Shown in pieces: positions 5,902 through 25,338 of a DNA stretch of 41,926 nucleotides. The notes beneath the pieces were generated by a model that did no database searches, was not told the DNA's origin, and saw only the letters and a program-made list of their open reading frames with translations. A program made the position numbers and the translations under genes. Origin of the DNA: Candidatus Nomurabacteria bacterium RIFCSPHIGHO2_01_FULL_37_25 (GTDB lineage Bacteria; Patescibacteriota; Minisyncoccia; Phycocordibacterales; UBA9973). The stretch is taken from positions 83,974 through 125,899 of the forward strand of contig MFTH01000013.1 in assembly GCA_001786765.1 (NCBI GenBank), written 5' to 3'. Position 1 is the stretch's first letter. The number at the start of each line of letters is the position of its first letter.

Positions 5902-8106
5902 CTAGTCTCTAACTATAATATTGATAGTAACAGTTGCAGAGGGCGTAGCCGAATCGTTTATTTCAACCCAAGTATTACGATTTTCATTTGCGGCAGTGAT
6001 GGTAAAAGTATTACCGGTAAGCTTTGATGATTTTAGTTTATGAAAGTCACCTGCCCTAAGTCCTAGCGTATAAGGTTCCGTGCCGCCTGATATGGTCACG
6101 CTCGCCGTCTGGTTTTCATGAATAGAAATATAGCTTGACGGACTAACTACCAAGGTCGTCGGCGCGTCAGTTACTGTAATTGTGGCGCTTGCTTGTTTTT
6201 CTGGTGTGGATGAATCTTTGATAATCACTCCCATTTGTTCATTACTTGTGACTCCAGTAATTATTAATTGTGATGAATCAGTTTCAGAAATTTTTACAGT
6301 TGCTCCCACGCCTGATACATTTTCTATAGAATAAGGTCTTGTTCCGCCGTCTATGATTACAGTTTTCTCTTCTCCGACAGCGACGGAAATATCTTGTTGG
6401 ATATTTAATTCTTCTTGGCTTGTTATTCTAATATCAACTCTTTTTTCTTCACCTAGAGAATCTTTTATTATGACAAAAGTTTCACCTTCATTAACACCGC
6501 TTATTACTAAAGAATTAGAAGCAAAGGTTGCTATCGCGATGTTTTGATTAGGATATGCGCTTATGTTATAAGGTCCCGTTCCCCCATCTATTCTTGCGCT
6601 GAAGATATTACTGACGCTGGTTGATATACAAGCATTATCGACATCAATCGTTGATGTACAGTTTGTTGGGATTATTGCCAGCGCTCCGATAGCATTTACT
6701 TCAATTCTAATTGAAGCTGTGATTTCTGAATCAGAGGAATCTTCGATTGTGACTTCGGTGGTGCCTGGAGCGACGCCTGTAACTGAAAGTTTTGTTCCAG
6801 AGGCGCCAGAAGAATCAATTTTAGCGGTTGCTATTCCCGAGTCTGGCGCAGTTTTTATATTATAATCTCCAGAGCCACCAGATATAGGCGCGCTAGTTGT
6901 TTGCCCGACTCTTATAGAAACATTTGTTGGGATGTTTAAGGTTGCCGGCGCGTCGCTGGGGTAGTCGTCTAGTGTTACTGGGTCGCCTAGAGGGTCGTCA
7001 TAGCTCCAATTGTCGCTTCCTCTACCGCCTTCACCACCTCCACTGAATGCATCTGAAAGTGAATTCAAGCCTACTTCTAAGAACTTACCTAATAGCGCGT
7101 CAAAAATAGCCGCCAAGCTGTTGCCTATAGCGCCGTCAAGCGCAGTTTGCAGAAAAGGAGTTTCTAACGCGCTGAATACTTGGTTTGCCGCCACAGATCC
7201 GGGGGTGGTGTTTACTAAACGCGGACAATAATTTTCCTTTTCCCATTCTTCGGCTGCTTTATTATATCTATTCATGAAATCATCGTTAGATTCGCCTGGG
7301 TCCATGGTTGGTCCTTTGAATTTTGGTCTTACAAATTCGTTTATGCCATTGTTATATTTTGGATTGTCCGGACATGTTTGTGGCGACAAAAAGCCCATTC
7401 CTTGCTGTAATGCGTCGCGCACTTTCTCCGCCGGCGCTTGGAATACCCCTTCTAGTCGGCTTGCCAGATTTTCTTGTACTATCATCTGGAATCCTAAATA
7501 ATTATTTTGCGGATATTGGGTATTTATCAAAAATCCATTCCATCCTCCGTAATTGAAATCGTTCCTGTATCTAACCAATAAATCAGGGTCATTTATGACT
7601 TTACTTAAAGTGTATTGGCTATTTTCATAAAGTTGGCTTTTATAACTGTCTATTACACCTAGCGCGGTTTCTCGGCCGAAAGGAAAGTGAAAAGTGTCAT
7701 AGCCTATCATATCCACTAAATTCCTAACTTCATTTTTTGCTATGTCTTTAAAGAAAGAGTCTGGGTTTTCTAGGAAAAGGGGCGCTCCGTGAAAACCAGA
7801 GTTTATCCAGTTTATTGTGGATTGAGTCATTTCCGCTAAAAGTCTTTTTGCTATCATTTTAAGAATTTGTTCAAGAACTGTTTGCGCCCAGTCTTTGAGA
7901 GTAGTAGCGGTATTTGTGAGTGTTGAAGCCAGGTTCAGTTTTTCAAGAGCTGCAGTTAAAGCAGTTTTGATTCTAACAACAATATCATCCACTAGTACCC
8001 CCTGCGCTTCCGCTTGTTTGGGTCTAGAAAGTAAAACATTCGGCAACAATATTGAGATTATCAATATAAAGGAGATAAGTTTTGTTGTTTTGTTTTCTTT
8101 ACTCAT
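5902..8106 (-). CDS. Secreted T4SS-associated protein: helical N-terminus plus four Ig-like repeats
   Basis: Signal peptide LISFILIISILLPNVLLSRPKQAEAQ; repeats with GG(S/T)xxPY/DYNI ... GxTxVxIxDS... Confidence 0.7.
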   Translation of the reverse strand: MSKENKTTKLISFILIISILLPNVLLSRPKQAEAQGVLVDDIVVRIKTALTAALEKLNLASTLTNTATTLKDWAQTVLEQILKMIAKRLLAEMTQSTINWINSGFHGAPLFLENPDSFFKDIAKNEVRNLVDMIGYDTFHFPFGRETALGVIDSYKSQLYENSQYTLSKVINDPDLLVRYRNDFNYGGWNGFLINTQYPQNNYLGFQMIVQENLASRLEGVFQAPAEKVRDALQQGMGFLSPQTCPDNPKYNNGINEFVRPKFKGPTMDPGESNDDFMNRYNKAAEEWEKENYCPRLVNTTPGSVAANQVFSALETPFLQTALDGAIGNSLAAIFDALLGKFLEVGLNSLSDAFSGGGEGGRGSDNWSYDDPLGDPVTLDDYPSDAPATLNIPTNVSIRVGQTTSAPISGGSGDYNIKTAPDSGIATAKIDSSGASGTKLSVTGVAPGTTEVTIEDSSDSEITASIRIEVNAIGALAIIPTNCTSTIDVDNACISTSVSNIFSARIDGGTGPYNISAYPNQNIAIATFASNSLVISGVNEGETFVIIKDSLGEEKRVDIRITSQEELNIQQDISVAVGEEKTVIIDGGTRPYSIENVSGVGATVKISETDSSQLIITGVTSNEQMGVIIKDSSTPEKQASATITVTDAPTTLVVSPSSYISIHENQTASVTISGGTEPYTLGLRAGDFHKLKSSKLTGNTFTITAANENRNTWVEINDSATPSATVTINIIVRD

Positions 8107-10602: not shown

Positions 10603-11564
10603 GTCAGCGTAATCCAGTCTACCAAAGTTAAATCTTCCGCCCTTTTATTCCCCAATTCTGTCAAATATGTCAAAGTGTCTCTTTGACATACGCTTTTTAG
10701 GTTACTGGAGAGTTTTTTTCTTTTATGCGCAAAGCCAGCTTTTACTATTTTCCAGAATTTTTCTTCAAAATCTTGACTGTTCCAAGTTTTATCTTGAACA
10801 GTCGTTTTGCCTCCCTCTCCTTTATAAGGAGAGGGCTGGGGTGAGGTAAATATTTTTCGTGAGATGTTTTTTATAGCGATTATTGCTGAATTTACTTTTG
10901 GCGCCGGAGAAAAATATCTTTTATCAACTTTGGCGATCATTTTTACTTCTCCATATGCTTTGACTGAAATAGATAAGATGCTTTCTTTCTTGCCCGCCGA
11001 AGCTTTAGCGGAGGAGGGGCTATTTCCCAATATTCTTTGAGCCACTTCGTGTTGAACCATCAATACCATGCTTTCGGGTTGATTTAATCCTCCCAAAAAT
11101 TTTTTCAAAATCGCGCCGGTGATGTTGTAAGGGATATTAGCGATAATTTTATAGGTACTAGGCTTCAGGCCGTAGGCATTAGTATTAAAATCTAAAATAT
11201 CTCCGCATACTAGTATGAGAGTATTTAATTTTATCTGTTCAGCAAATTTGTTCTGCAAAATTTCATAAAGTTCTTTATCTTTCTCTATCGCTAGAACCTT
11301 GCACCTAGTCCCTAACAACTTTTCTGTCAGCGCTCCTTTACCGGGACCTATTTCTAGTATTATATCGTTCTGTTTTATTTCTCCCGCTTCAACAATCTTG
11401 CGGAGCGCTGTTTCAGATTTTAAAAAATTCTGCCCCAAAATTTTTCTTGGCACGAACTTTTTCTGGGTACGGATTTTTTGAAGCTTAAAAAATCCTGAAA
11501 TTGGCTCGCCGTCGCTCGCCAAACCCCCTCCAAAAGTTGTGCCTGCGACAAATTTTCTTTTCAT
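10593..11564 (-). CDS. rsmA: 16S rRNA dimethyladenosine transferase RsmA/KsgA
   Basis: PRKILGQNFLKSETALRKIVEAGEIKQNDIILEIGPGKGALTEKLL; ANIPYNITGAIL. N-terminal extension and two internal repeat-coded insertions. A GTG at VPRKILGQNFL is an alternative start. Confidence 0.95.
   Translation of the reverse strand: MKRKFVAGTTFGGGLASDGEPISGFFKLQKIRTQKKFVPRKILGQNFLKSETALRKIVEAGEIKQNDIILEIGPGKGALTEKLLGTRCKVLAIEKDKELYEILQNKFAEQIKLNTLILVCGDILDFNTNAYGLKPSTYKIIANIPYNITGAILKKFLGGLNQPESMVLMVQHEVAQRILGNSPSSAKASAGKKESILSISVKAYGEVKMIAKVDKRYFSPAPKVNSAIIAIKNISRKIFTSPQPSPYKGEGGKTTVQDKTWNSQDFEEKFWKIVKAGFAHKRKKLSSNLKSVCQRDTLTYLTELGNKRAEDLTLVDWITLTKL
10810..10846. repeat. CCCTCTCCTTTATAAGGAGAGGG palindrome in rsmA (TSPQPSPYKGEGG)
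   Basis: 10-bp perfect stem with 3-nt loop; in frame. Confidence 0.7.
10990..11020. repeat. GC-rich palindrome in rsmA (SPSSAKASAGKK)
   Basis: TTGCCCGCCGAAGCTTTAGCGGAGGAGGGGC. Confidence 0.6.
11437..11562 (+). repeat. composite palindromic element, copy B (62-bp core 11466..11527)
   Basis: Core GGTACGGATTTTTTGAAGCTTAAAAAATCCTGAAATTGGCTCGCCGTCGCTCGCCAAACCCC with partially complementary flanks. Confidence 0.75.
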
Positions 11565-13726
11565 ATATAAATCGTCTTTATTCTATCTTTTTCTCCTTCT
11601 TTTTCTAATAAATCTGCTGGAATGTCGCTGATAAACTCTGATGGAGCATTAATATTGCGAGCTCCAAAAATGGTGCGAAAATTCGCAAATGATAAAAACA
11701 ATTTTTCTTTAGCGCGGGTGATTGCCACATAAAAAAGCCTGCGTTCTTCTTCCTGCGCCTCGCCGTAGCCTTGCGCGGAGGTGGAGCTATCTTCATTATG
11801 ACGCTCATGCGGGAAAAGTCCGTCTTCTAGTCCTGTGATAAAAACATGTTTAAATTCAAGCCCTTTTGAAGCGTGCACAGTCATTAACTTGACCGCATTT
11901 ATTTTTTCTTTTTTATCTTCATTAATTATTAGTGAATCTTGGTCTGAAGCTAGTGAAGCGTCTTCCAGAAGTTTTTCTATTCCACGACCGTTTTCTAGGT
12001 TGTCATATTTAAGAGCCAATGTTGCCAACTCTTTTATGTTTTCCAGTCTTTCTTTGTCTTCTTCTGTGCCAGAGGAAAGTTCATTTTCAATGCCGGACTT
12101 TTTTACCACAAATTTGATTACTTCAGATGTTTTTACTTGCTCTATTTTTTCTTTTATCTCTTCCAGTATTTTGTAAAAATTATCAATTTTAATTTTCATT
12201 TTTATGGGCAGGTTTTCGATATCATTGGCCCAGCCTTCGCCGAGGCTTCGGCGGGGCGAAGCAAAAATTTTGATTAAAGTAACTTTGCCTATGCCTCGCG
12301 CGGGGAAATTTATTATTCTTTTTATGTCTCCTAGACTATTTCTGTTTAAGGCTGCGCGCAAATATGCTAAAGTGTCTTTTATTTCTTTTCTTTCAAAAAA
12401 TTTAATTCCCAAAACTTGATACGGAATATTGTATCGTAGCATCGCTTCTTCTAAGGCTCTGGATTGGAAGTTTGCTCGATACAGAATGGCAATTTCGGAG
12501 AGAATGTTCTTTTTTTCATAAACGGAGCTGTCAGCAGGATCATCTTTTGTGGGGTCGCTGTCTCCGCGTGCTCGCGGAGCGCTGCCTCTCGGCTCGTCAG
12601 CCTGCGAGACACCCCAAAAAGATGATCCTGCTTCAGCTATTTCTAAAATCTTTGTGGCCACGAAGTCGGCTTCGTCATTTTCATCTAGCGCTTCATACAG
12701 TCCTATCTTTTCTCCCAGATCATTTTTTGTAAATAAATTCTTGTCCGGTCTGTATTTATTTTTTTTAATTACCACATTCGCCGCCTCCAAGATGTTTTGT
12801 GTTGAGCGATAATTCTCTTCTAGTAGAATTATTTTTGCATTCGGATAATCCTTCTCGAAATTTAAAATATTTTTCAAATTCGCTCCCCGCCACGAATATA
12901 TATTTTGATCTACATCACCAACTACACAAATATTTTTATTATTTTCTGCCAGCATTTTGGCCATCAAATACTGTACTTCGTTGGTGTCTTGATATTCATC
13001 TATGTGGACATATTTCCATTTTTCTTGATAAATTTTTCTAATTTGTTCATTTTCCTTCAACAATTTTGCCGCTTTTAAAAGCAAGTCGTCGAAATCCAAC
13101 GAATTTTCTTTTATTTTCTTTTTTTCATATAAATTCCAAACTTGCGCCACGATTCTCCCGAAAGAATTCGCGCTATTTATTTCTTCATAATCCGCCAAAT
13201 GCGTGAATTTTCCCTTCTCCCGCGAGATGACATTTTTTATTTTCTTCGGGTCATATTGCTTCGGGTCAATAGCAAGCTCTTTTTCCGCTTCTTTTATCAA
13301 ACTCGTGGCGTCATTCTCGTCTAGAATAGTGAAATATTTTGTCAGCCCTAAAATCCGCGCATTTTCTTTTATTATGTAAACTCCGAGAGAATGAAAAGTA
13401 GAAATAAAAGGTTCGCGATATTGCGTTCTGTCACCACGAAAATTTTCTACTGAAAATTTTCTCTGTCCGTCGTCGCCACTCCTCCCAAGGGTTCCATAAC
13501 GCAATATCGCTTTCTCTATCCGTTCGCGCATTTCTTTGGCGGCTTTATTGGTAAATGTTACAGCCAAAATATGCTCTGGCGACACGCCATTTTTTATCAG
13601 ATTTACTATTTTATGCGTTATAGTTTTAGTTTTCCCCGCTCCCGCGCCAGCTATAATAAGCAGTGGACCATCTATATGTTCCGCCGCTTCTCTTTGTTTT
13701 TTATTCAAGCCTGCCAGATGTTGCAC
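11561..13726 (-). CDS. UvrD/PcrA/Rep-family DNA helicase
   Basis: LNKKQREAAEHIDGPLLIIAGAGAGKTKTITHKI; VHIDEYQDTNEVQY; ENYRSTQNIL; LMTVHASKGLEFKHVFITGLEDGLFPH. Carries palindromic in-frame insertions. GTG start. Confidence 0.95.
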   Translation of the reverse strand: MQHLAGLNKKQREAAEHIDGPLLIIAGAGAGKTKTITHKIVNLIKNGVSPEHILAVTFTNKAAKEMRERIEKAILRYGTLGRSGDDGQRKFSVENFRGDRTQYREPFISTFHSLGVYIIKENARILGLTKYFTILDENDATSLIKEAEKELAIDPKQYDPKKIKNVISREKGKFTHLADYEEINSANSFGRIVAQVWNLYEKKKIKENSLDFDDLLLKAAKLLKENEQIRKIYQEKWKYVHIDEYQDTNEVQYLMAKMLAENNKNICVVGDVDQNIYSWRGANLKNILNFEKDYPNAKIILLEENYRSTQNILEAANVVIKKNKYRPDKNLFTKNDLGEKIGLYEALDENDEADFVATKILEIAEAGSSFWGVSQADEPRGSAPRARGDSDPTKDDPADSSVYEKKNILSEIAILYRANFQSRALEEAMLRYNIPYQVLGIKFFERKEIKDTLAYLRAALNRNSLGDIKRIINFPARGIGKVTLIKIFASPRRSLGEGWANDIENLPIKMKIKIDNFYKILEEIKEKIEQVKTSEVIKFVVKKSGIENELSSGTEEDKERLENIKELATLALKYDNLENGRGIEKLLEDASLASDQDSLIINEDKKEKINAVKLMTVHASKGLEFKHVFITGLEDGLFPHERHNEDSSTSAQGYGEAQEEERRLFYVAITRAKEKLFLSFANFRTIFGARNINAPSEFISDIPADLLEKEGEKDRIKTIYI
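12227..12262. repeat. small GC-rich palindrome in the uvrD-family gene (SPRRSLGEGW)
   Basis: GCCCAGCCTTCGCCGAGGCTTCGGCGGGGCGAAGC; related to 31645..31676. Confidence 0.6.
12534..12631. repeat. 98-bp palindromic insertion inside the uvrD-family gene
   Basis: Inverted ends GCAGGATCATCTTTT / AAAAGATGATCCTGC; internal CTCCGCGTGCTCGCGGAG hairpin and TCTCGGCTCGTCAGCCTG block. Confidence 0.8.
13415..13510. repeat. 96-bp palindromic insertion inside the uvrD-family gene
   Basis: Perfect 13-bp inverted ends GCGATATTGCGTT / AACGCAATATCGC; GAAAATTTTC-TACT-GAAAATTTTC inside. Confidence 0.8.
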
Positions 13727-13761
13727 TTATCAAATATAACACAAGTATCCAAATATGATTA

Positions 13762-14058
13762 CTATTTAGTTAAACTAGATCTTAAATCTTCAATTTTTAT
13801 CTTTTCCGCAAGAATTTTTTTAGCTTTATCTATTTGGCTTATAGCATCCAAGCCTTGCTTTTGTATTTCCGCTATATCTTTTACACCTTTTGTTTCGTCC
13901 ATCAACGCTTCTTCAAAAAACGCAAAAGTTAATTTGTCTTGCATTTCTTTTGGGAATTTTTGCAAATTATTAATTAAAAAAATTCGAGCGCCTTCCTCGT
14001 CATTTTTTTCTACAAAAGTTAGAAATTCATTGTATAATTCTGAAAATGTATTGTTCAT
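13762..14058 (-). CDS. small helical hypothetical protein
   Basis: 98-aa ORF (MNNTFSELYNEFLTFVEKNDEEGARIFL...) following 14074..15135. Confidence 0.5.
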   Translation of the reverse strand: MNNTFSELYNEFLTFVEKNDEEGARIFLINNLQKFPKEMQDKLTFAFFEEALMDETKGVKDIAEIQKQGLDAISQIDKAKKILAEKIKIEDLRSSLTK

Positions 14059-14073
14059 AATTGATTATTTTTA

Positions 14074-15135
14074 TTAGCTTAATGTATTTCTCTTGTCATT
14101 AATGTTTCCTTCAAGCCATGCCGCAAAAATGCTAGCCCAAAATCCTTTGTTTTTCTTATTTTTTTCTTCATATTTTGTCTTTTGTTCAGCAATAAACATA
14201 TCTTTAACAATATCTTGTTCAAGCGTATTTTTCCCCGCATAGTCAGAGCTTGTTTTATATCTTTCCCAGTCTTCATTGAATTCCTTTTCGTCTAAAGTAG
14301 TTTCCTTTTTTGCATCAAGGAATCCAGTCTTTTTTTCTGTTGCCACCGGCGCGCTTTCTGATAGTAATTCTTTAGACAGAGCATCTCTCATATCATCATT
14401 ACCGCTAACACTAGCAAATAGAATAGAACCAATATCGCTCTTATATTTATCTAATTCGGCATAAGAATCTTCAAGTGAACGGGCGGCAGTATTCAAATTA
14501 TTTAAAAGATCTTTATTAAGCCTATTCCACCAAAGCCCCCCATACTTTTTTGCTAGTTGCTTTATCGCTTCCTTCTTTTCAATAGGATCTTTTATTGCCA
14601 GAGTGTCTAAATATTCCTGCGAAGTAATACCATTATCATTCAATAATTTGTCAACTTTATCACTCGTTTCTTTGTCTTTTCCATTCTTAAAACTATCATG
14701 TATATCTATTGGCTTGGCAATTGCATCAAAGCTATCTTCATCATTAAAGCATATTTCTTTCAGCTGGTTGCGTATTACTTTTAAGGCTTTTTTAGGAGTA
14801 AGACTATCAAGTATTTTTGCAAAATCGGGATGCTTGCGCGCAATTTCAATTATGTTTTCTTCGGTCAGTAAATTTTCAATCCTTTCCGATTGAGCGATTT
14901 TTTTTGAAAATTCTACCCTGTATTCGCTAAGAAGTTCAAGATCATCTTTTTCAAGTTTTCCTTCCCTGATTCTTTGCCCCAGATCTTGTTGCCCATCTTT
15001 TTCAAGCAGTTTACCAAAAAGGTCAGACTTGTTTTTATCTTGCAATATTTCCGCTACAGTATGACCTACTGGAGGTGGCGTAGTATGTACTTTATTATCT
15101 TCTTTACTTTTTCTAAAATCGTCCATTATTCCCAT
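14074..15135 (-). CDS. hypothetical helical protein, hydrophobic C-terminal tail
   Basis: 353-aa ORF; C-terminal KNKGFWASIFAAWLEGNINDKRNTLS. Confidence 0.55.
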   Translation of the reverse strand: MGIMDDFRKSKEDNKVHTTPPPVGHTVAEILQDKNKSDLFGKLLEKDGQQDLGQRIREGKLEKDDLELLSEYRVEFSKKIAQSERIENLLTEENIIEIARKHPDFAKILDSLTPKKALKVIRNQLKEICFNDEDSFDAIAKPIDIHDSFKNGKDKETSDKVDKLLNDNGITSQEYLDTLAIKDPIEKKEAIKQLAKKYGGLWWNRLNKDLLNNLNTAARSLEDSYAELDKYKSDIGSILFASVSGNDDMRDALSKELLSESAPVATEKKTGFLDAKKETTLDEKEFNEDWERYKTSSDYAGKNTLEQDIVKDMFIAEQKTKYEEKNKKNKGFWASIFAAWLEGNINDKRNTLS

Positions 15136-15299
15136 ATATTTATCATAAAACTTTTAATCTTAATAAGCTATTTGTAACTAAAGGCTCTCAATATTATATA
15201 AATTAATATTTTTTCTGTCAATTTTCCGTTATATTACTTGATAATTTTCAAATTATATTATACTATTTTTATCTTTTCCTCAAGAATTTTTCTAGAATT

Positions 15300-15626
15300 T
15301 TATTTAATCTGTTCGAGAACAGACAATGATTCATTTCTGAAATTTTCTGATTCTTCTCCAATAATATTCAAAAATCCAGGAACTTTTTCAAAGAAAAAAT
15401 CAAGAACCACATCTGGCATAGCGTTACTTTCTATTAATTTTTCATACTCTTCTAGGTCATTTTTTTCTAAAAGGGGCAGAACCCTGGTCAATACTGATTG
15501 GAAAATTATTTTTCCAATTCGAGATATCATTTCTTCTTGTTTATCCTCAGGTAATTTGTTGATTCCAAACAAAGTTATAATATTTTTACGAACTTCTTCT
15601 TGCGCTACTAGTGTATTTGTATTCAT
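15300..15626 (-). CDS. small helical protein, possibly DUF5663-like (from memory)
   Basis: LFGINKLPEDKQEEMISRIGKIIFQSVLTRVLPLLEKNDLEEYEKLI...FFFEKVPGFLNIIGEESENF. Confidence 0.5.
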   Translation of the reverse strand: MNTNTLVAQEEVRKNIITLFGINKLPEDKQEEMISRIGKIIFQSVLTRVLPLLEKNDLEEYEKLIESNAMPDVVLDFFFEKVPGFLNIIGEESENFRNESLSVLEQIK

Positions 15627-15656
15627 ATTTTTAATTTCATTATTAATAATTTTATA

Positions 15657-18600
15657 TTAGACTTTTATAATATAGTTTTTTACTTCATCTAATTTTCCCA
15701 TTTCAGCCGCTTTTTGCAAGGCTCGAGCAATGTAGTGTTCTGTATTTTCTTTTTTCCAGAAAAAGCTATCAGTTGGTCTAAGACCGGTGTATTCTTGAAG
15801 TTTGTGAATGTATACAAGAAAATGATTTTCCGGATCTTCTTGTTTTAGTAAATTTCCAACATTAGAATATCTTATTTTTTGCCATTCATTTATTTTCTCA
15901 CCAGAGAAAATTCCTTTCAGAATTTCTTGATGAGTTTGATAAACCCCTATTAACCCTTCCCCGCTTAAATGAAAAGGATTTCCAATAATAAATTCAGGAT
16001 GTTCCTCTAATAAACGACTTTGTTCCATAGAAATATCTGAAAAAAGTTGGCCCCGATTTATACTGAATCCAAATGTATTATCATTTTGCCCAGCGTTTCT
16101 TTGTATACCAATTCTTCCTATTTCCTCAGGTATTTCAGCATACTTTTTTAGTGTATTAGCTCTTGCTGTCTCTATGGGAGAATTATTTTTATGTTCAGGA
16201 TTAACTTTTTCAATATTATCTGAATCAAACATTGCCCCAGTGTATTTTTCTACATCTTGTCCAATTTTTGCATCATGAAAAATTATTTTCCCAGTTGTTT
16301 CATCGTACTTTAGACTTGATCCTTTCATAATGTATGCGCTTTCTGCAGTGTTGTTGGGGTCATAGAAACCTAAGTCTATCGCTTGTCTAGTAGCGTTCGT
16401 GTCTTTCAAAAATTCTTGGATATTTTTTGGTAAAACTGTAATATCTGGATATTTAGCTCTAAGATCTGCCTTGAAATCAATCAACCCTTGTATACCACCC
16501 TTTCCTTTGTCAAAAACATAACTTCCTTCTGGTGTTGTTTCTTGTGTTTCAATAGTAGATGTGTTAAAAGACGCTGGGATAACAGTTGGTGTTGTATGGT
16601 CAGAAGAAGCCCCTGGCTCATGTGTTTTTGATGGTGTAGTTGTGGGTGTTTTTGATCCTGATTCAATACCTAAAGCTTGAGCTGCATTTTTCGGTAAAGT
16701 TTCGCTTCTTTCAAATCCTCCATTTGCATTATATATATTATATGTTCCATCAGGAAATATTTTATACTTAGCTCCTCCCGATCTTTCTGCGTATATTATT
16801 TTTTTTCCATTTTCATAAGTTTCCCGTAATTTTGTTATATTTGGATCTACTTTTTTCAGTTGTGTAAGTTTTTCATCGAGAGTCTTTGTTGGGTTTTTAG
16901 CTTCAGCTGTTTCTGTCGTTTTGTCTTCAGACTCTATTTTTTCTTCTGCAGGTTTTTGACCACTAGGAGTATCTATTTCAGGTTTTGGTGGAGTTTCTGG
17001 TTCTAATTTAATACCCAAAACACTTTTCATATTATCTGCTATAGTTCCTTTGTCATAAAGTATTTTCTGGTTATTATAAGACTCATATTTTCCATCAGGA
17101 AATATTTTATGCGTATATCCATTATCAGATTTTAAAATAAAGGTTTTTTCTCCTCTTCCATTGACTCCCCCCTGTAACTCTTTTATAAATGGAAATATTT
17201 TTTTCACCTCTGTAAGTGTTTCTAGTTCTTCAGGAGACATGCTTGTTTCAGTTGAAACCGGTGGTTGTTCTGTTCTTTCTTGCTCTTGTATTGGCTGGGG
17301 TGGTTGTAAAGCTTTTTCCATTTTTGGTGGAAGGGAATCTCCTTTAGTAAATAATTTTCCATCTATATCATAAAGTTCATAAGAATTTTTATCAGGAAAT
17401 ATTTTATATATGTATTCGCTTTTTGGGTTTTTTGCAAAAAATACTTCCTCCCCGTTCTCTTCAATTTTCTGTACTTCTGTTATAAATGGATCGAATGGTT
17501 TCAATTTTGTAAGTACTTCATTTTCTTCGGGAGACATATCTCCAGTAAATACAGACTGGTCTAATGCATTAGTTTTTGTTGGCGATTCAACATTTGGTAG
17601 TTGAGTTCCTTGCCGTAATCTATTAAAGGGTGAGTTCTCAAATGCTTGATGATTTGCGTTTATTGCAGTCATTGTGCCGAGACCAACTCCAATCGTTAAA
17701 GCTCCACCAAGAATATTTTTTGCCCATTGGTATCTTTTTAATTTTTTTCCTATATCATTGTTATATGTGTTTTCATATGTATTCAAAATATCAGCTAAGT
17801 TAGTTTCATTAAAAGCATCTGAGCTGATTAAAGGACTCATTTCGTGTTTATTAGATATTTTTTCTTTTAAATCTTTTATTTTTTTATCGATAAAATAATT
17901 TAATGCTCTTCTTCCAGCAAACCCCCCAGCTGCAACACCAGCCACTATACACCCACCAAATAAAAAGGAAATACTAGTTCCTCCAAGCATTGCAAGATTT
18001 TGAATAGTGAAAATCTTATTTTTTTTGTTTTCATCCCCCTTCTTTTTAAATGACTTTAGGTGTTCTATGAGTTCCGAACCTGTTTTTGAAGTTAGTGCCA
18101 TATTCAACCCTACAGCAGCGCTCACTCGAGCACCCAATCTAGCTGAAACCATAAGCGCTGATGATGAACCAATGCCGAGAAGCGCCGCAGAAGCTAATGT
18201 TGCTCCCCCAATCAAGGCAGTACTAGAAAAAACCTTGAACGCTTTTCCTTTTTTAGTTTTTTCTAAATTAGCCCACCATTTATTGGTTTTAGCGAGAGGT
18301 CTTTCTAGAAGACCAGTTTTAGCGATAGCTTCAGCATCAAAATCTTCTTTTGCTTTTAAGAATAGTTCTCGCGCTAATTCTTCTTTTTTTTCTGTGGAAA
18401 GACCAGGTTGTTTATTTAATTCTTCTTTGATCCTTTGCGCTATAGCTACTGTGTCCATCTTTGATACTGGTTTTATAACAGGATCTGTTTCATCAATTTC
18501 TGACTTACTCTTTTTTGTTCTAGCTTTTTCAAGAGAAGCTTTTAATTTTTCAATGTCTTCTGCTCTTTTACGTCTCTTTTCTTTTAATTCCTCAAGAGCT

Positions 18601-18710
18601 TTTTCTTCTGGATCTGTTTCATCAATTTCTGGCGCACCTTCTTTTTCTGCTCTTTTTAATGCTTCTTTTTCTCTTTCTGCTTTTTTTAATGCGTCGTATG
18701 TTTTTGACAT
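15657..18710 (-). CDS. large membrane-associated repeat protein (1017 aa)
   Basis: N-terminal MSKTYDALKKAEREKEALK; Gly/Ala-rich TM segments; three about-60-aa YKIFPDG repeats; unique C-terminal domain. Confidence 0.65.
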   Translation of the reverse strand: MSKTYDALKKAEREKEALKRAEKEGAPEIDETDPEEKALEELKEKRRKRAEDIEKLKASLEKARTKKSKSEIDETDPVIKPVSKMDTVAIAQRIKEELNKQPGLSTEKKEELARELFLKAKEDFDAEAIAKTGLLERPLAKTNKWWANLEKTKKGKAFKVFSSTALIGGATLASAALLGIGSSSALMVSARLGARVSAAVGLNMALTSKTGSELIEHLKSFKKKGDENKKNKIFTIQNLAMLGGTSISFLFGGCIVAGVAAGGFAGRRALNYFIDKKIKDLKEKISNKHEMSPLISSDAFNETNLADILNTYENTYNNDIGKKLKRYQWAKNILGGALTIGVGLGTMTAINANHQAFENSPFNRLRQGTQLPNVESPTKTNALDQSVFTGDMSPEENEVLTKLKPFDPFITEVQKIEENGEEVFFAKNPKSEYIYKIFPDKNSYELYDIDGKLFTKGDSLPPKMEKALQPPQPIQEQERTEQPPVSTETSMSPEELETLTEVKKIFPFIKELQGGVNGRGEKTFILKSDNGYTHKIFPDGKYESYNNQKILYDKGTIADNMKSVLGIKLEPETPPKPEIDTPSGQKPAEEKIESEDKTTETAEAKNPTKTLDEKLTQLKKVDPNITKLRETYENGKKIIYAERSGGAKYKIFPDGTYNIYNANGGFERSETLPKNAAQALGIESGSKTPTTTPSKTHEPGASSDHTTPTVIPASFNTSTIETQETTPEGSYVFDKGKGGIQGLIDFKADLRAKYPDITVLPKNIQEFLKDTNATRQAIDLGFYDPNNTAESAYIMKGSSLKYDETTGKIIFHDAKIGQDVEKYTGAMFDSDNIEKVNPEHKNNSPIETARANTLKKYAEIPEEIGRIGIQRNAGQNDNTFGFSINRGQLFSDISMEQSRLLEEHPEFIIGNPFHLSGEGLIGVYQTHQEILKGIFSGEKINEWQKIRYSNVGNLLKQEDPENHFLVYIHKLQEYTGLRPTDSFFWKKENTEHYIARALQKAAEMGKLDEVKNYIIKV

Positions 18711-18720
18711 ATATGCTTAA

Positions 18721-18834
18721 TTATTTTTTCAATGCCTTTTGCATTAGAGCCAACTCAGGATTAGTCCTCGCAATAAGTTCTTTGTTGTCTCTGTCACTTT
18801 CGTCTAGTTTTTCAAGGGCTTCTTTAATTTTCAT
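18721..18834 (-). CDS. 37-aa small ORF between the two MSKTY proteins
   Basis: MKIKEALEKLDESDRDNKELIARTNPELALMQKALKK*; below the ORF-track cutoff; ends 10 nt before the next start on the minus strand. Confidence 0.4.
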   Translation of the reverse strand: MKIKEALEKLDESDRDNKELIARTNPELALMQKALKK

Positions 18835-18859
18835 CTTTTTTCTTTTTTAATAATTTCTT

Positions 18860-19366
18860 TTAACGTTTTCTTAGTTTTTCCACATTTTTTTTAATTTGCA
18901 TCTTTTTTTTAAGAGCTTCTTTTAACCTTTCCTCTAAAATCTTATCTTTCTCATCCTCTGCGATTTCTTTTCTAAGCCTTCTTTCTATTTCAGCAATCCC
19001 ACCTACTTTTTCTGGGTCTGCTTCTTCATCAGCCATTTTCCAACCCTCATCTTCTTCCATTTCTTCTAAAAATATATTTCTTTTTTCTTTTAAAGATTTT
19101 ACAGGTGTAGCCGTTTCTTCTTCTGGCGCTTCTGCCGCTGCCGTTTTTACAGGTGCAGGTGCAGATGTAAGTGCGAATGTTGCTTCAGGTTCAGTTGATA
19201 CTTTTCCTTCAGCTTCTGCTAAAGCCACCAGTGCACGCCGTAAATCTTCTCTAGTTTTATTGTCGCTTTCTTCTATCTCTGCGTCTCTTTTTCCAATATC
19301 TCTGAGAGTTTTTTCAATTTCCTGTTCTCTTTCTACTCTTTTTAATGCCTCATAAGTTTTTGACAT
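18860..19366 (-). CDS. coiled-coil protein with MSKTYEALKR N-terminus
   Basis: MSKTYEALKRVEREQEIEKTLRDIG shares its N-terminal motif with the 1017-aa protein; LRRALVALAEAEGKV resembles the 957-aa neighbour. Confidence 0.55.
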   Translation of the reverse strand: MSKTYEALKRVEREQEIEKTLRDIGKRDAEIEESDNKTREDLRRALVALAEAEGKVSTEPEATFALTSAPAPVKTAAAEAPEEETATPVKSLKEKRNIFLEEMEEDEGWKMADEEADPEKVGGIAEIERRLRKEIAEDEKDKILEERLKEALKKKMQIKKNVEKLRKR

Positions 19367-19399
19367 ACATTTATATTATATAATAATTTAAACTTTATG

Positions 19400-22273
19400 T
19401 TATTTTTCTAATCCTGCTAAGAGTCTATCATATCTGGCGTTGATTGCCTTTATTTCATCGATTGTTGTTTCGAGTCTTTTCAAGTAAGAATCTTCTCCTG
19501 ATAATAGTTCTTTGGAATAGTTTAATTTTTCTGTGTAATATTCCAATGGTGAAGTCCTTATGGCTTCCAAATCTTCATCAATTTTCTGTTCTTTCCAGAG
19601 TGGGAGTGGTCCTGATCTAAGCGTCTCTGTTTTATCTTTTATATCTAACACAATCATCTCGATACTATTTATTCGTTCTTTCCTTTTTCTTTCTAAAAAT
19701 CCTCTTTTCTCCCCCACTGTCTTAAGAGATTCCATTTCTCTTATTTCCATTTCAAAATCAAATTGATCGAGCTGTTGTGTTTGATATTCTTCTGCTTTTT
19801 TATAGAGTAAATCATTTCCTGTTTCAAAATCAAGGTCATCTGCTTCCAAACTACCGTCTGGGCGATAAAGTTCAAATTTTGATTTTGGATTTCCAAGTTC
19901 TATTACACCCATTGCATCTCTTGGGGTTTCTTTTATATTTTTGAGTCTCAAATAAAATCCGTTTGAAGAAAAATTAGTGGCATTATTTGTGTAGTCTTCT
20001 ATATACTTATACAAATTCCAAAATTTCAAATCTTTACCATCCTGTGGCATCGCATTATTAATACTTTTGAGTGTTTCTAAATTAAGTTTTTCTTTGTTCG
20101 TATCAAATAAAATTTCAAAATTTATCGGGTGTAATTTACCTATTAAGTAATATGTGAAAGGATTTTCTTTCCTGTGTTCCAATATAGCTATTTGCTCTTT
20201 CAAATTCTTACGCTTGAACGGTCTAATTTTAGAAGTTTTTTCTAGTTCTGATCTGAGTAAAGCTAATCTGGATTCAAGCTCGTCTAAATCAGGAATTGGT
20301 CTTATTGGATTTTGATTTTCTGATGGTGTTGCTATTTCTGGAGGTTTTTTTCCCTTAAGTTCTGCCAACTCTCTAAGCAAAGCTTCTCTTTTGACTCTAT
20401 TTTCTTCTCTTTCAACCCTATTTCTTTCAAGTTTTATCTGCGCAGTTGCTATCGTTTCGTTTAGTTTTGCTATTGCAACAGCTTTTGCGTCTGCTTCTGT
20501 CTTTATCGGCTCTGAAACGGCTGGTTCAGCCGTTTCTTCAGCTGCTGCCAAAGTCGCCAATGCTTCTGCATTACTTCTTTTCGCTTCTGCTATAATCCTT
20601 CTAAGTTGTTCTGCTCTTATTTCGTCGTCTGTTTTCTGACTTTCAAATAAAGCTAGTTGTTTCTTTTGATATTCTTCTGCTCTCTGTCTCATTAATCTTT
20701 GCCCCTCTTCATAACTTAGCGAATCTTCCCCAGTAAAATATTCCCAATTTGGATTCACCAATTTATATTTTGCTCTTGGGCTACTTGTAAATATTCCTTT
20801 TTTGCCATCTTCTCCCTTACCTCGTACTTCCTCCACATTTTGCAATTGTAAAGTAAATCCGTTAGATGATAGTTCTACCGTATTACTTTTCCCTGGTAAA
20901 ATAAGTTTAGAAGTAAAAAATTTTACTTCTCGACCAGATTCTCCACAAGTTCTATTAATATCCTCGAGCGTAGCTTCTGCTTTTCCTTTTGAGAATAAAC
21001 ACCAAAAGGCTGCATCACTCATATTTTCTATTACAAAATATTTAAAAGGATTTTGTACTTTATCTTTCTCCAAAGCTTCCTTTGATGCCTGTTCGGGTGT
21101 GGCAGAAGCTGTGATTGACGCTTCTCCTGAATCTATTTTAGCTCGAGCAATCCTCCTTTCAATCTCTGCTAACTCTTGTGTAGCATCAGCTATAATTCCT
21201 TCATTTTTTACTATTGTCTCTCCAAGCGTTGCTTTTGCGTCTGCTTCTGCGTTCGGTCCTGGAGCAACTTCTGCCATTGATGTTTTAGATTCAGGTTCAG
21301 TTGTTTCTTCTTCTAATGGTTGTCTTTCATCTCCTTCTTTGATTAGTAGTTGTACCACATTCCCTGCAGTCTCTTGAGATTTTTTGATACGCTCTCGTTC
21401 TTTTAGGATTGTGAGAGCCTCTCTTGAATTTTTTATAAACTCGTTTATTCGTTCAGTTTGTGTGGAATTTGGGTCTACTTCATATCTAGTTTTTTCTATA
21501 TATATAATTTTTTTCTCTAAATATTCAATACCTGTAGGCAACATAGAATTTTTGAGATATTCATCAACCGACTCCCCAGTTTTTTTTAGAAACTCATCTT
21601 CCATTTTTTCTAGTTCACTTATTGGTATTGTTTCTCTCCTTATTATTGGTACTTCTTCTCTTGGTACCATTAGAACCTCCGGCTTTGCTTCTATCGGTAC
21701 TTCTTTCCTTGGTACTGATTTTACTGTTTCTATAAATGTTGATTTCACCTCTAGTCTTGTTGGCCCTCTTCCTAATCGTACTTCTTCCTCTACTGGTATT
21801 TGTGCCGGAATATCCTTTGATTCTACTTTTTCTAGCTCTGGGGGAAGATCCAAAGTCTCCATAGCTTCTTTTTTTAAAGTTCCTTTACCAAGTCGTTTTC
21901 CAGCTTCATCATAAAACTCATATCTTCCATTAGAAGATAGCCTATAATAATTTTTAGCTTTAGTTGTTGCAACAATTATTCTTTCTCCATTTTCACCAAT
22001 CTCTTCTTTTAGTTCGGTTATATTTCTATCTATTTTTTGAAACCTTTCAAGCCTTTCTTGTTCTGCTTGCGCTTTTATTAACCTTGCCTGCCTTTCTTTC
22101 ATTTTTTCTAATATACTTTTTTGTTTTGGTTGCGGAGCGTCTACAGACGGAACTGTTTTTTCAGCTTCTGCCAAAGCCGCCAGAGCTTCTTTGTTGTCTT
22201 TGTTCGCTTCTTCTATAACAGCTCTAAGTTTCTCTGCTCTTATTTCATCCGCTGTTTTTGATTTTTGTTCCAT
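19400..22273 (-). CDS. large coiled-coil protein with duplicated domain (957 aa)
   Basis: Two copies each of EIRAEKLRxxIxEAxxxNxEALAxLAxAE and a NPFxYxxI...AEEYQxxQL domain; one YKIFPDG-type repeat. Confidence 0.65.
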   Translation of the reverse strand: MEQKSKTADEIRAEKLRAVIEEANKDNKEALAALAEAEKTVPSVDAPQPKQKSILEKMKERQARLIKAQAEQERLERFQKIDRNITELKEEIGENGERIIVATTKAKNYYRLSSNGRYEFYDEAGKRLGKGTLKKEAMETLDLPPELEKVESKDIPAQIPVEEEVRLGRGPTRLEVKSTFIETVKSVPRKEVPIEAKPEVLMVPREEVPIIRRETIPISELEKMEDEFLKKTGESVDEYLKNSMLPTGIEYLEKKIIYIEKTRYEVDPNSTQTERINEFIKNSREALTILKERERIKKSQETAGNVVQLLIKEGDERQPLEEETTEPESKTSMAEVAPGPNAEADAKATLGETIVKNEGIIADATQELAEIERRIARAKIDSGEASITASATPEQASKEALEKDKVQNPFKYFVIENMSDAAFWCLFSKGKAEATLEDINRTCGESGREVKFFTSKLILPGKSNTVELSSNGFTLQLQNVEEVRGKGEDGKKGIFTSSPRAKYKLVNPNWEYFTGEDSLSYEEGQRLMRQRAEEYQKKQLALFESQKTDDEIRAEQLRRIIAEAKRSNAEALATLAAAEETAEPAVSEPIKTEADAKAVAIAKLNETIATAQIKLERNRVEREENRVKREALLRELAELKGKKPPEIATPSENQNPIRPIPDLDELESRLALLRSELEKTSKIRPFKRKNLKEQIAILEHRKENPFTYYLIGKLHPINFEILFDTNKEKLNLETLKSINNAMPQDGKDLKFWNLYKYIEDYTNNATNFSSNGFYLRLKNIKETPRDAMGVIELGNPKSKFELYRPDGSLEADDLDFETGNDLLYKKAEEYQTQQLDQFDFEMEIREMESLKTVGEKRGFLERKRKERINSIEMIVLDIKDKTETLRSGPLPLWKEQKIDEDLEAIRTSPLEYYTEKLNYSKELLSGEDSYLKRLETTIDEIKAINARYDRLLAGLEK

Positions 22274-22378
22274 AAAATAAAATTTATAAATTAATTTTTA
22301 CCTTTATATTATTTATTGAATGTAGTTCTTGCTAGTAGCATATCATATCTGGTATTAATTGCATTTATTTATTGCTCT

Positions 22379-24052
22379 TTATTTTGTGGGTTCTTTATGG
22401 GAAGCTGGGATTGACGCTTTCCCTAAATCTGTTCTAGTCTGAGCAATCCTCTTTTCAATCTCTTGTAATTCTTTTACAGCATCAGCTATAATTTTTTCAT
22501 TTTTTGCTATCCTTTCCCGAAGTTTTGCTATCTTTTCAGTTCGCTCTTCTGTTCCAGAATCAGCTCTCTCGTCTTTCTCGCCACCCTCCCCTTTCGTATC
22601 TCCTACGAGCTCTTTGGGTCTCTTGACAGATTCCAGTGATGCTTCTTGGGCAGCTTCTCTTTGAGCATACGTGCTATGTGTCGCTGTCAGGTCCTGTGAT
22701 ACTTCGGTCTCCGATCTCCTCGCCTTGAGAACTATTTTTGTGTATCTAGGACCTGGGGTACAACTTACCTCTTCAATAGTAATGGGTTCGCCGTCGACAG
22801 CCTGGGGGATGAGATCAATGCTGAATTCTACCAGATAACTTGCACCATCTTTAATTTCTACTGCTGGCCATAATGACTCGTCTTCTCCGAAGCCCCGTTC
22901 CACTTGCAGATAGAAAAAATTTGCATCGGTCTGCGAAGATTGGAGCACACTTTCAAGCTGAGCTGACAAGCCGAGCTTTCCAGCAATTTTTAGCACATCG
23001 TCTTTAGAGATGTTAATACGATCAAGATCGACACTCCGTACCAGTAATTTTCCTGATTCGTGCACTCCATTTAGGTGTCCATATGTTTCGTACCCTCGGG
23101 CGCTCTTTTTTTGGTTAGGGAACAATTCTACTAACGAATATTCATGTTGTTTCCGTGGCATCTCGCCAAATTCTAGTGGTTTTCTTTGCTCCGGTGGTTT
23201 TGCTATTTCTCTCACAAGGGCTATCGCCTCTTCTCCACTCATATTATAAAAACGGGGTTTTCTAGAATGATTTAGTAATTGTATAAGCTCCTTATATCTA
23301 GCCGTCTCTTCTTCCGGGAGACATCCCTTGCTAAACTTATTAAGTATCATTTGGAGACCATGAAGCACATTTGTCTTTTTTACTTTTTCGCTCACATGCC
23401 TTTCTTCGACAACCCCATCCACATCACGAAATCCGGTTGAATTCCAATCAAGCACCACCAAACGACCATTCTCCGGTATATAATAGAAATCATCAAGTTT
23501 TCTGTCGGTCGTTTGAAGATTCAAGGCAAAAACCACCTCAAGAATTTCCATGTACTGCCGCAGCACGTCCTTGGCTCTTTCTTGGTGACTCTGGAAAACT
23601 TTCTCCATCTCGCTACCCGACATGTGAGAGGATTCTTCCATAAACTCAAGCACGAGGGCGGGCTTTTCGTTTATTTCAATCAATCTGGCGGCAGGAAAAT
23701 GAGATGGAGTCCCGGGGAACATCTCCTCTTGTTTCGCCTGCAAAAGATGAATTACTTTCTCTTCATCAATGATGTGTGGCTCCCAACTCTCTTTCAGAGG
23801 AATCTTTACAGCAACAGGGAGCCGCATGCCATCACTCATAGTCAGATCTGCCTGTAATACCCTGCTCGTTGCTCCGAATCCGAGCTCATTATCACGCTCG
23901 TACTTGGCCTTTCTTATTTCGAGCGAAAATTTTACCCCCGGTTCCGCCCAAGATTTAGGTTGATCGGTTGTTTTAATAATAGGTTCTTTAAGTATTTTAT
24001 CGCCAGAAGCAATTACTGACGACTGATCTATTTTTGTAGGCCGTGGTTCCAT
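22379..24052 (-). CDS. divergent protein-kinase-fold protein with C-terminal coiled tail
   Basis: ERDNELGFGATSRVLQADL...LPVAVKIPL (Gly loop, VAxK), TTDRKLDDFYYIPENGRLVVLDWN (catalytic-loop and DFG-like positions). Confidence 0.5.
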   Translation of the reverse strand: MEPRPTKIDQSSVIASGDKILKEPIIKTTDQPKSWAEPGVKFSLEIRKAKYERDNELGFGATSRVLQADLTMSDGMRLPVAVKIPLKESWEPHIIDEEKVIHLLQAKQEEMFPGTPSHFPAARLIEINEKPALVLEFMEESSHMSGSEMEKVFQSHQERAKDVLRQYMEILEVVFALNLQTTDRKLDDFYYIPENGRLVVLDWNSTGFRDVDGVVEERHVSEKVKKTNVLHGLQMILNKFSKGCLPEEETARYKELIQLLNHSRKPRFYNMSGEEAIALVREIAKPPEQRKPLEFGEMPRKQHEYSLVELFPNQKKSARGYETYGHLNGVHESGKLLVRSVDLDRINISKDDVLKIAGKLGLSAQLESVLQSSQTDANFFYLQVERGFGEDESLWPAVEIKDGASYLVEFSIDLIPQAVDGEPITIEEVSCTPGPRYTKIVLKARRSETEVSQDLTATHSTYAQREAAQEASLESVKRPKELVGDTKGEGGEKDERADSGTEERTEKIAKLRERIAKNEKIIADAVKELQEIEKRIAQTRTDLGKASIPASHKEPTK

Positions 24053-24114
24053 TAATATATTTACATTATATATTCTTTACCCAAAATAGTTATCCCCACT
24101 TTGTTAGTTTTGGA

Positions 24115-24143
24115 TTGACTTTCGGCTTATTTTGGGCTAGCAT
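24115..24143 (+). promoter_or_regulatory. sigma70-type promoter for LysM-M23 gene
   Basis: TTGACT-17 bp-TAGCAT, about 65 nt upstream of ATG at 24208. Confidence 0.55.
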
Positions 24144-24207
24144 ATGGATGTACCTTTTAGGTAGTTATAGCGGAAAATGATTGAAATTCAGAGCCGATGG
24201 TACTATC

Positions 24208-25338
24208 ATGAGAACTTTATCTAAAATATTCAGGTCTATTCGGGCCTTTTCCTTATTGTTTGGGGCTTTTTTGTTGTTATTTGCCCCTTTACAAGCGCAA
24301 GCTGGGCTTCTTTCTTCGATTTTAGGCGATGAAGCCTATGCGGACACAGAAATCACCGAAGGAACTCAATCCAACTATAACTCACAGACTATGGGGCTTC
24401 TTCAAGCAAACGTTTCTTCTGCCTCAATTTTTGAAGATAAAAATGACAAAAAAGATAATATTATTGATGAAAATGCCAAAGTAAGCATTGTTTCTGACAA
24501 TGCCCTTATGCCCACAAGTAGTCCGATGGGTTTTTCCGATGGTAAAGGTGGCGCAGAATTTTCGCCGGAAGAGACAAGTGTGTATGTAGTAAGAAAAGGC
24601 GATTCTGTCTCTCAAATAGCTGAAATGTTTGGAGTTTCAGTCAATACTATATTGTCGGTTAATGATATGAAAAAAGGTGAAAAGCTTGCAGAAGGCGACG
24701 TTCTTTTTATATTGCCTATTTCTGGTATTGAACATACTGTGGCTAAAGGTCAAACTTTAGCCAGTATTGCAAAGCTTTATAAAGTGGATATAAACGACAT
24801 TGCTTTTTATAATGGTATTTCTGCGGACGCTAAGCTTTCTATAAACGATGAACTCATTATTCCTGGTGGCGATATGGTTCATGAAGGAGGCGATAAACCT
24901 GCTTCAAACCTAAGCTCTGCAATTTCTAGAGACCAAAACTATTATGCTACGCACCCAATCCAGAATCTTGTCGGATATTTTATAAATCCAGTGCCTATAG
25001 GACGCAAAACTCAAGGTCTTCATGGTCCGGGTAATCGAGGGATAGACATTGGCGCTCCAAAAGGTACGCCAATCTACGCTTCTGCTCCCGGAAAAGTACT
25101 TATAGCGAAGACAGGCTGGAGCGGAGGTTATGGAACTATGGTGATCATTGAACATCCTAATAACACAAAAACTCTTTATGCGCATATGACAAAGCTCGGC
25201 ACTCATTCTGGCGCGCAAGTATCTCGAGGAGAAGTTATTGGCTATGTCGGTTCAACAGGCCGTTCTACTGGTCCACATTTACATTTTGAAGTTTTCAACG
25301 CTAAAAATCCAGGCTCTGACTGGTCTTGGGCGAATTAA
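24208..25338 (+). CDS. LysM (x2) - M23 family metallopeptidase, secreted
   Basis: Signal peptide; VYVVRKGDSVSQIAEMFGVS..., EHTVAKGQTLASIAKLYKVD...; M23 motifs GNRGIDIGAPKGTPIYA, LYAHM, GPHLHFEVF. Confidence 0.9.
   Translation: MRTLSKIFRSIRAFSLLFGAFLLLFAPLQAQAGLLSSILGDEAYADTEITEGTQSNYNSQTMGLLQANVSSASIFEDKNDKKDNIIDENAKVSIVSDNALMPTSSPMGFSDGKGGAEFSPEETSVYVVRKGDSVSQIAEMFGVSVNTILSVNDMKKGEKLAEGDVLFILPISGIEHTVAKGQTLASIAKLYKVDINDIAFYNGISADAKLSINDELIIPGGDMVHEGGDKPASNLSSAISRDQNYYATHPIQNLVGYFINPVPIGRKTQGLHGPGNRGIDIGAPKGTPIYASAPGKVLIAKTGWSGGYGTMVIIEHPNNTKTLYAHMTKLGTHSGAQVSRGEVIGYVGSTGRSTGPHLHFEVFNAKNPGSDWSWAN

Follow-up and report, generated by a model that had tools for sequence, protein, structure and literature searches.

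According to PMC12102498, the type IV secretion systems (T4SS) of Patescibacteria are chromosomal, mostly lack a relaxase, and are thought to have been co-opted for other functions. For Paceibacteria, the same paper reports VirB1-type proteins that carry M23/LysM in the vicinity of VirB4. In one cultured member, an epibiont, epibiotic growth requires envelope functions, among them the T4SS and adhesins (PMC10633639). What the T4SS does in Patescibacteria is not yet settled (PMC12102498, PMC10633639).

We analyzed a window of 41,926 nucleotides from Candidatus Nomurabacteria bacterium RIFCSPHIGHO2_01_FULL_37_25. Its T4SS markers are PrgI (PF12666), a TraG/VirB4-type P-loop protein (the VirB4 ATPase part), and a TrsD-like neighbor. 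A variable cassette lies between UvrD and an M23/LysM peptidase (Table 1). Like the modular envelope proteins near Patescibacteria T4SS, its genes adjoin PrgI, VirB4, VirB6-like, and M23/LysM proteins. In the available text of PMC12102498, there is no mention of the P0001 family, of its C-terminal domain (CTD), or of the repeat reported here, and the family is undescribed in the literature found. Syntenic loci follow the order divergent M23/LysM peptidase, one to six variable cassette genes, UvrD, KsgA, and T4SS cluster genes. The cassette spans 2.6–9.0 kb at 20 congener loci, and its main member is a P0001-family protein. The T4SS cluster of the window also contains an exported-looking protein (5902–8106). 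Its C-terminal half carries Ig-like repeats, it has a weak T2SS-T3SS_pil_N match, and its orthologues range from ~500 to 1600 aa.

Table 1. Features of the cassette and its flanks, in window positions.
Feature	Position	Strand	Residues and basis
UvrD	11561-13726		
Variable cassette, ~10.4 kb	13727..24180	.	between UvrD and M23/LysM peptidase
P0001, 1017-aa modular membrane protein with copies 1-3	15657..18710	-	ORF; genus relatives; synteny
P0001 conserved helical CTD	15681..16001	-	residues 904-1010
P0001 GIQ middle module	16215..16520	-	residues 731-832; in 7 congener proteins
Repeat copy 3	16665..16859	-	P0001 residues 618-682; residues 612-686 used for folding
Repeat copy 2	17010..17207	-	P0001 residues 502-567
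Repeat copy 1	17307..17504	-	P0001 residues 403-468
P0001 hydrophobic segment 3	17658..17717	-	residues 332-351; hydropathy
P0001 hydrophobic segment 2	17910..17999	-	residues 238-267; hydropathy
P0001 hydrophobic segment 1	18141..18233	-	residues 160-190; hydropathy
P0003, 168-aa protein	18860..19366	-	first 16 residues match P0001 start, 75%
P0002, 957-aa soluble protein with copy 4	19400..22273	-	ORF
P0002 M domain copy 2	19757..20188	-	residues 696-839
P0002 M domain copy 1	20636..21076	-	residues 400-546; conserved in congener cassette proteins
Repeat copy 4	21845..22042	-	P0002 residues 78-143
P0004, 557-aa protein	22379..24052	-	C-terminal 43 residues (509-551) match P0002 348-390, 63%
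M23/LysM peptidase	24181-25338		

Relatives of P0001 were present in 27 of the 80 genus genomes. The CTD occurred in all 25 family members (P0001 and 24 congener proteins), and that of P0001 was all-helical in the model (pLDDT ~75–93 by block). Outside the genus, the CTD was also found in two genomes (L105 and L106) of another family of the order, with the same gene order around it as across the genus. At weaker scores, it appeared off the UvrD locus in proteins of 1139–1774 aa from two other families (L103, L104, and L108). The module preceding the CTD was either GIQ (7 proteins) or KGEG (12 proteins), and hhalign linked these alternatives weakly (E 2.5e-4 to 1e-3). The membrane parts belonged to several unrelated types, as judged by reading the sequences. 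Across the family, the CTD is conserved, while the membrane part, the middle module, and the linker differ between members. The GIQ–CTD model had no structural neighbors, and no hydrolase domain was found in P0001.

The position of the repeats became clear from the three congeners with the same type of membrane part as P0001. In P0001, 380 aa separate the last hydrophobic segment from the conserved module that follows; the corresponding gap is 100 aa in L052, 73 aa in L057, and 107 aa in L059. The extra length is the stretch that contains three repeats, an insertion of ~280 aa. Since this stretch is missing from the relatives that share the membrane part of P0001, the three-repeat array is, on this comparison, a lineage-specific insertion in the P0001 family.

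Another P0001-family protein (L058:5954-9127) had N-terminal TPR repeats before the membrane part (E 2.8e-13, assigned by reading the sequence), which is another lineage-specific insert. In the assemblies GW2011_GWB1_43_19 and UBA12134, a P0001-family gene was broken up into two frames that overlap (634 or 632 aa and 324 aa; L053:8044-10804 and L092:789-3543). The junction DNA was identical in these separately deposited assemblies, so the frame break is probably real, through decay, two proteins, or recoding. The L092 record, labelled Arenimonas sp., has Nomurabacteria-type genes as far as UvrD, after which it reads as GC-rich proteobacterial sequence; the contig appears chimeric, with the join inside UvrD. 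In the congener L060, a stretch (N-R-G-N-I) was considered as lysozyme-like, and this was not confirmed.

An earlier note on this DNA, made from the sequence alone, had claimed four copies of a repeat domain in the neighboring 1017-aa and 957-aa proteins, separated by low-complexity linkers. All four were found in place, letter for letter, and the linkers had a high content of P, T, S, and E. Searching with a profile built from the same copies would be circular, and each copy was therefore left out in turn. Profiles of the other three recovered held-out copies 1, 2, 3, and 4 at E 2.7e-11, 2.1e-9, 1.1e-13, and 1.1e-10, respectively (search size set to 2000). For comparison, the profile of copies 1–3 reached no better than E 0.015 among 524 congener ORFs. 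Pairwise identity between copies was 23–37%, and none of 2000 shuffles per pair reached the observed score. By these sequence comparisons, the four copies are homologous. The motif MSPEExExLT precedes the unit in both copies 1 and 2, so the duplicated unit comprises ~75 aa. No fifth copy was present in the 726-kb genome (17 contigs, 98% complete).

The earlier note had not recognized the domain, and had named a profile match to a Pfam domain as one outcome that would speak against it. No such match appeared: copies 1–4 stayed below threshold for every family of Pfam, NCBIfam, PHROGs, and PADLOC, and no solved chain among the PDB sequences matched. The repeat profile found only the window's own genome among the 80 genus genomes, leaving 79 other species without a relative, and the result was the same in 397 order, 384 class, and 380 phylum genomes (overlapping samples). 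One peptide pattern scanned over the genomes of 84,980 species gave no match, nor did searches of viral contigs and phage records with the repeat. Several candidates were rejected. The best genus match (L036, E 0.0047) falls in a protein with an LVIVD repeat. The phylum matches (E 4e-4 to 7e-4) comprised two PEGA-like proteins (L098 and L100), a short piece (L099), and a stretch with no open frame (L101). PDB sequence matches to designed beta-trefoils consisted of repeated chance pieces, each with an i-Evalue of ~40 or worse. A phage or plasmid origin was set aside, as phages and viral contigs gave no match and plasmids a single one at E 0.5. The same holds for a defense system, as PADLOC yielded only a weak match for a 98-aa ORF. 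Within the genomes, viral contigs, and phage records searched, the repeat appears restricted to this lineage.

To characterize the fold, a single unit was modeled with AlphaFold2 from a shallow, four-row alignment with 75 aa of copy 3 as the first row. The model (mean pLDDT 90.7, pTM 0.77) showed a helix at 2–10, strands at 14–22, 25–32, 37–40, 45–49, and 55–60, and a helix at 63–68. The predicted fold is a five-stranded beta meander flanked by two short helices, in agreement with the small beta-rich domain that had been suggested. Because a confident model was obtained from one unit alone, the units should be independent folds; the prediction gave no indication of dependent folding, and the earlier reading stood. 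Foldseek searches with this model returned no match at E ≤ 0.001, either among the solved structures of the PDB or among viral models. The repeat is a real domain, new at the sequence level and with no significant fold match.

The rest of the cassette points to exchange of modules. BLAST comparison of protein pieces revealed segments shared among P0001, P0002, P0003, and P0004 (Table 1), which indicates that modules have been exchanged between the cassette genes; the 43-residue stretch common to P0002 and P0004 is helical. Hydropathy revealed no hydrophobic segments in P0002 to P0006. The GC3 of P0004 was 0.387, about twice that of its neighbors (0.19–0.22 in P0001, P0002, and P0003). P0004, upstream of P0002, looked protein-kinase-like by eye (LGFGATSRV, AVKIP, and VLDWN), and no library confirms this. 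A DNMT1-RFD match in P0002 (E 0.0084) was below the cut-off and was not accepted.

With these results in hand, we tentatively favor, at close to an even chance, a lineage-specific spacer or binding module that gained copies in the stalk, probably an exported one, of a T4SS-neighbor envelope protein. A small self-folding domain would have arisen in this lineage, or diverged beyond recognition, and then been duplicated and moved between neighboring genes. Three copies on flexible linkers were inserted between the membrane part of P0001 and its conserved C-terminal modules. Most likely, the repeats would be beads of an extracytoplasmic stalk that holds the CTD further from the membrane, and the array may offer a repeated binding face to a partner protein or a host surface. 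No binding residue pattern was found in the repeat. Most congeners do not have the repeats, which therefore cannot be essential to the core role of the P0001 family.

We infer the export of the C-terminal part of P0001 from hydropathy and the positive-inside rule: three hydrophobic segments follow a positively charged flank, which would place the repeats, the GIQ module, and the CTD outside. LysM kinship of the middle modules does not back this orientation. The GIQ and KGEG modules had looked LysM-like by eye, and hhalign against 44 LysM copies from neighboring peptidases gave no alignment. Against the stalk reading, copy 4 lies in P0002, a protein with no hydrophobic segment by hydropathy and no visible signal peptide. 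Given this soluble location, the repeat domain is not limited to the cell exterior. Either it functions on both sides of the membrane, or P0001 has a cytoplasmic C-terminal half.

The latter option leads to a different explanation, in which the repeats are cytoplasmic docking domains. The copy in P0002 would then help cassette proteins to assemble at the membrane, through homotypic contacts or a shared partner. The occurrence of the same domain in a protein with neither a membrane segment nor a signal peptide fits this proposal, as do the modules common to P0001 through P0004. The number of membrane passes is also uncertain, since the hydrophobic segments of 30–31 residues could be hairpins. 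However, a count of three segments puts the C-terminus of P0001 outside, and the P/T/S-rich linkers look like extracytoplasmic ones. On balance, we consider cytoplasmic docking rather unlikely.

A further alternative, which we hold to be unlikely, is that the repeat belongs to a known beta-meander superfamily, such as MORN_2/YwqK, RHS/YD, or PEGA, from which it has diverged strongly, and involves no new biology. In its motif Y-x-[IF]-P-x-G-x-Y, it is similar to the hairpin turns of these repeats. Like MORN_2/YwqK (PF07661) and RHS/YD (PF05593), it occurs in tandem, with short strands, P-[DN]-G or D-x-G turns, and linkers to other modules. Unlike these 20–40 aa strand repeats, it spans ~66 aa with a helix on each side, and no copy matches either model; for MORN_2/YwqK, neither P0001 nor P0002 gave a match up to E 1. 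The congener L071, a P0001-family protein, carries a similar stretch before its membrane part, which was the best match of the profile of copies 1–3 among 524 congener ORFs (E 0.015). It showed a sub-threshold MORN_2 match (E 0.0069; 16.9 vs. the cut-off of 29.6 bits). In profile–profile comparison with MORN-like congener stretches, L071 beat all 60 shuffles, with a score of 24.6 against a shuffled maximum of 20.0, whereas the second candidate, L060, did not exceed them. MORN_2 kinship was thus borderline for L071 and not seen for L060. As to PEGA (PF08308), the weak phylum matches L098 and L100, which read like PEGA domains, share an N-Y-K-I-F-P-S-G-K-Y-E-V stretch. This likeness is confined to ~30 residues, and the Pfam PEGA profile had no match in the repeat copies. 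None of these families matches any of the four copies, and the lack of a significant fold match in the PDB or viral models also argues against such kinship.

More elaborate is the proposal that a domain family limited to one lineage serves as a matched docking pair, formed by an exported array in P0001 and the single copy in soluble P0002, which would be passed on to either the array or the secretion machine. The cassette would then be a fast-evolving host-specificity locus of Nomurabacteria-type epibionts. We regard this combination as very unlikely. Hardly probable is the view that the copies are a neutral turnover product of a fast-evolving locus, with no specific partner and with linker length or nothing of importance: the repeats occur in one species only, with congeners lacking them, and cassette lengths and modules vary freely, but the copies differ at 63–77% of residues and yet keep the foldable core, which suggests selection on the fold, and codon-position identities do not settle the matter.

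The repeat domain proposed in the earlier note was borne out; the lineage-specific insertion, the conserved CTD, and the T4SS-side cassette lay beyond its view. The repeat is best classed as a lineage-specific module of the P0001 family, whose members are modular envelope proteins that change fast and may be linked to the T4SS. The repeat itself is one more orphan domain, and the locus may matter more. It occupies a conserved place beside the T4SS cluster, where the main protein always ends in one helical domain and the rest is exchanged between species. The CTD provides a handle for finding the locus in other genomes. The bacterium is tiny and probably host-dependent, and should bacteria of this type be epibionts, such a locus is where one would look for host-specific parts of the surface or of effector handling.
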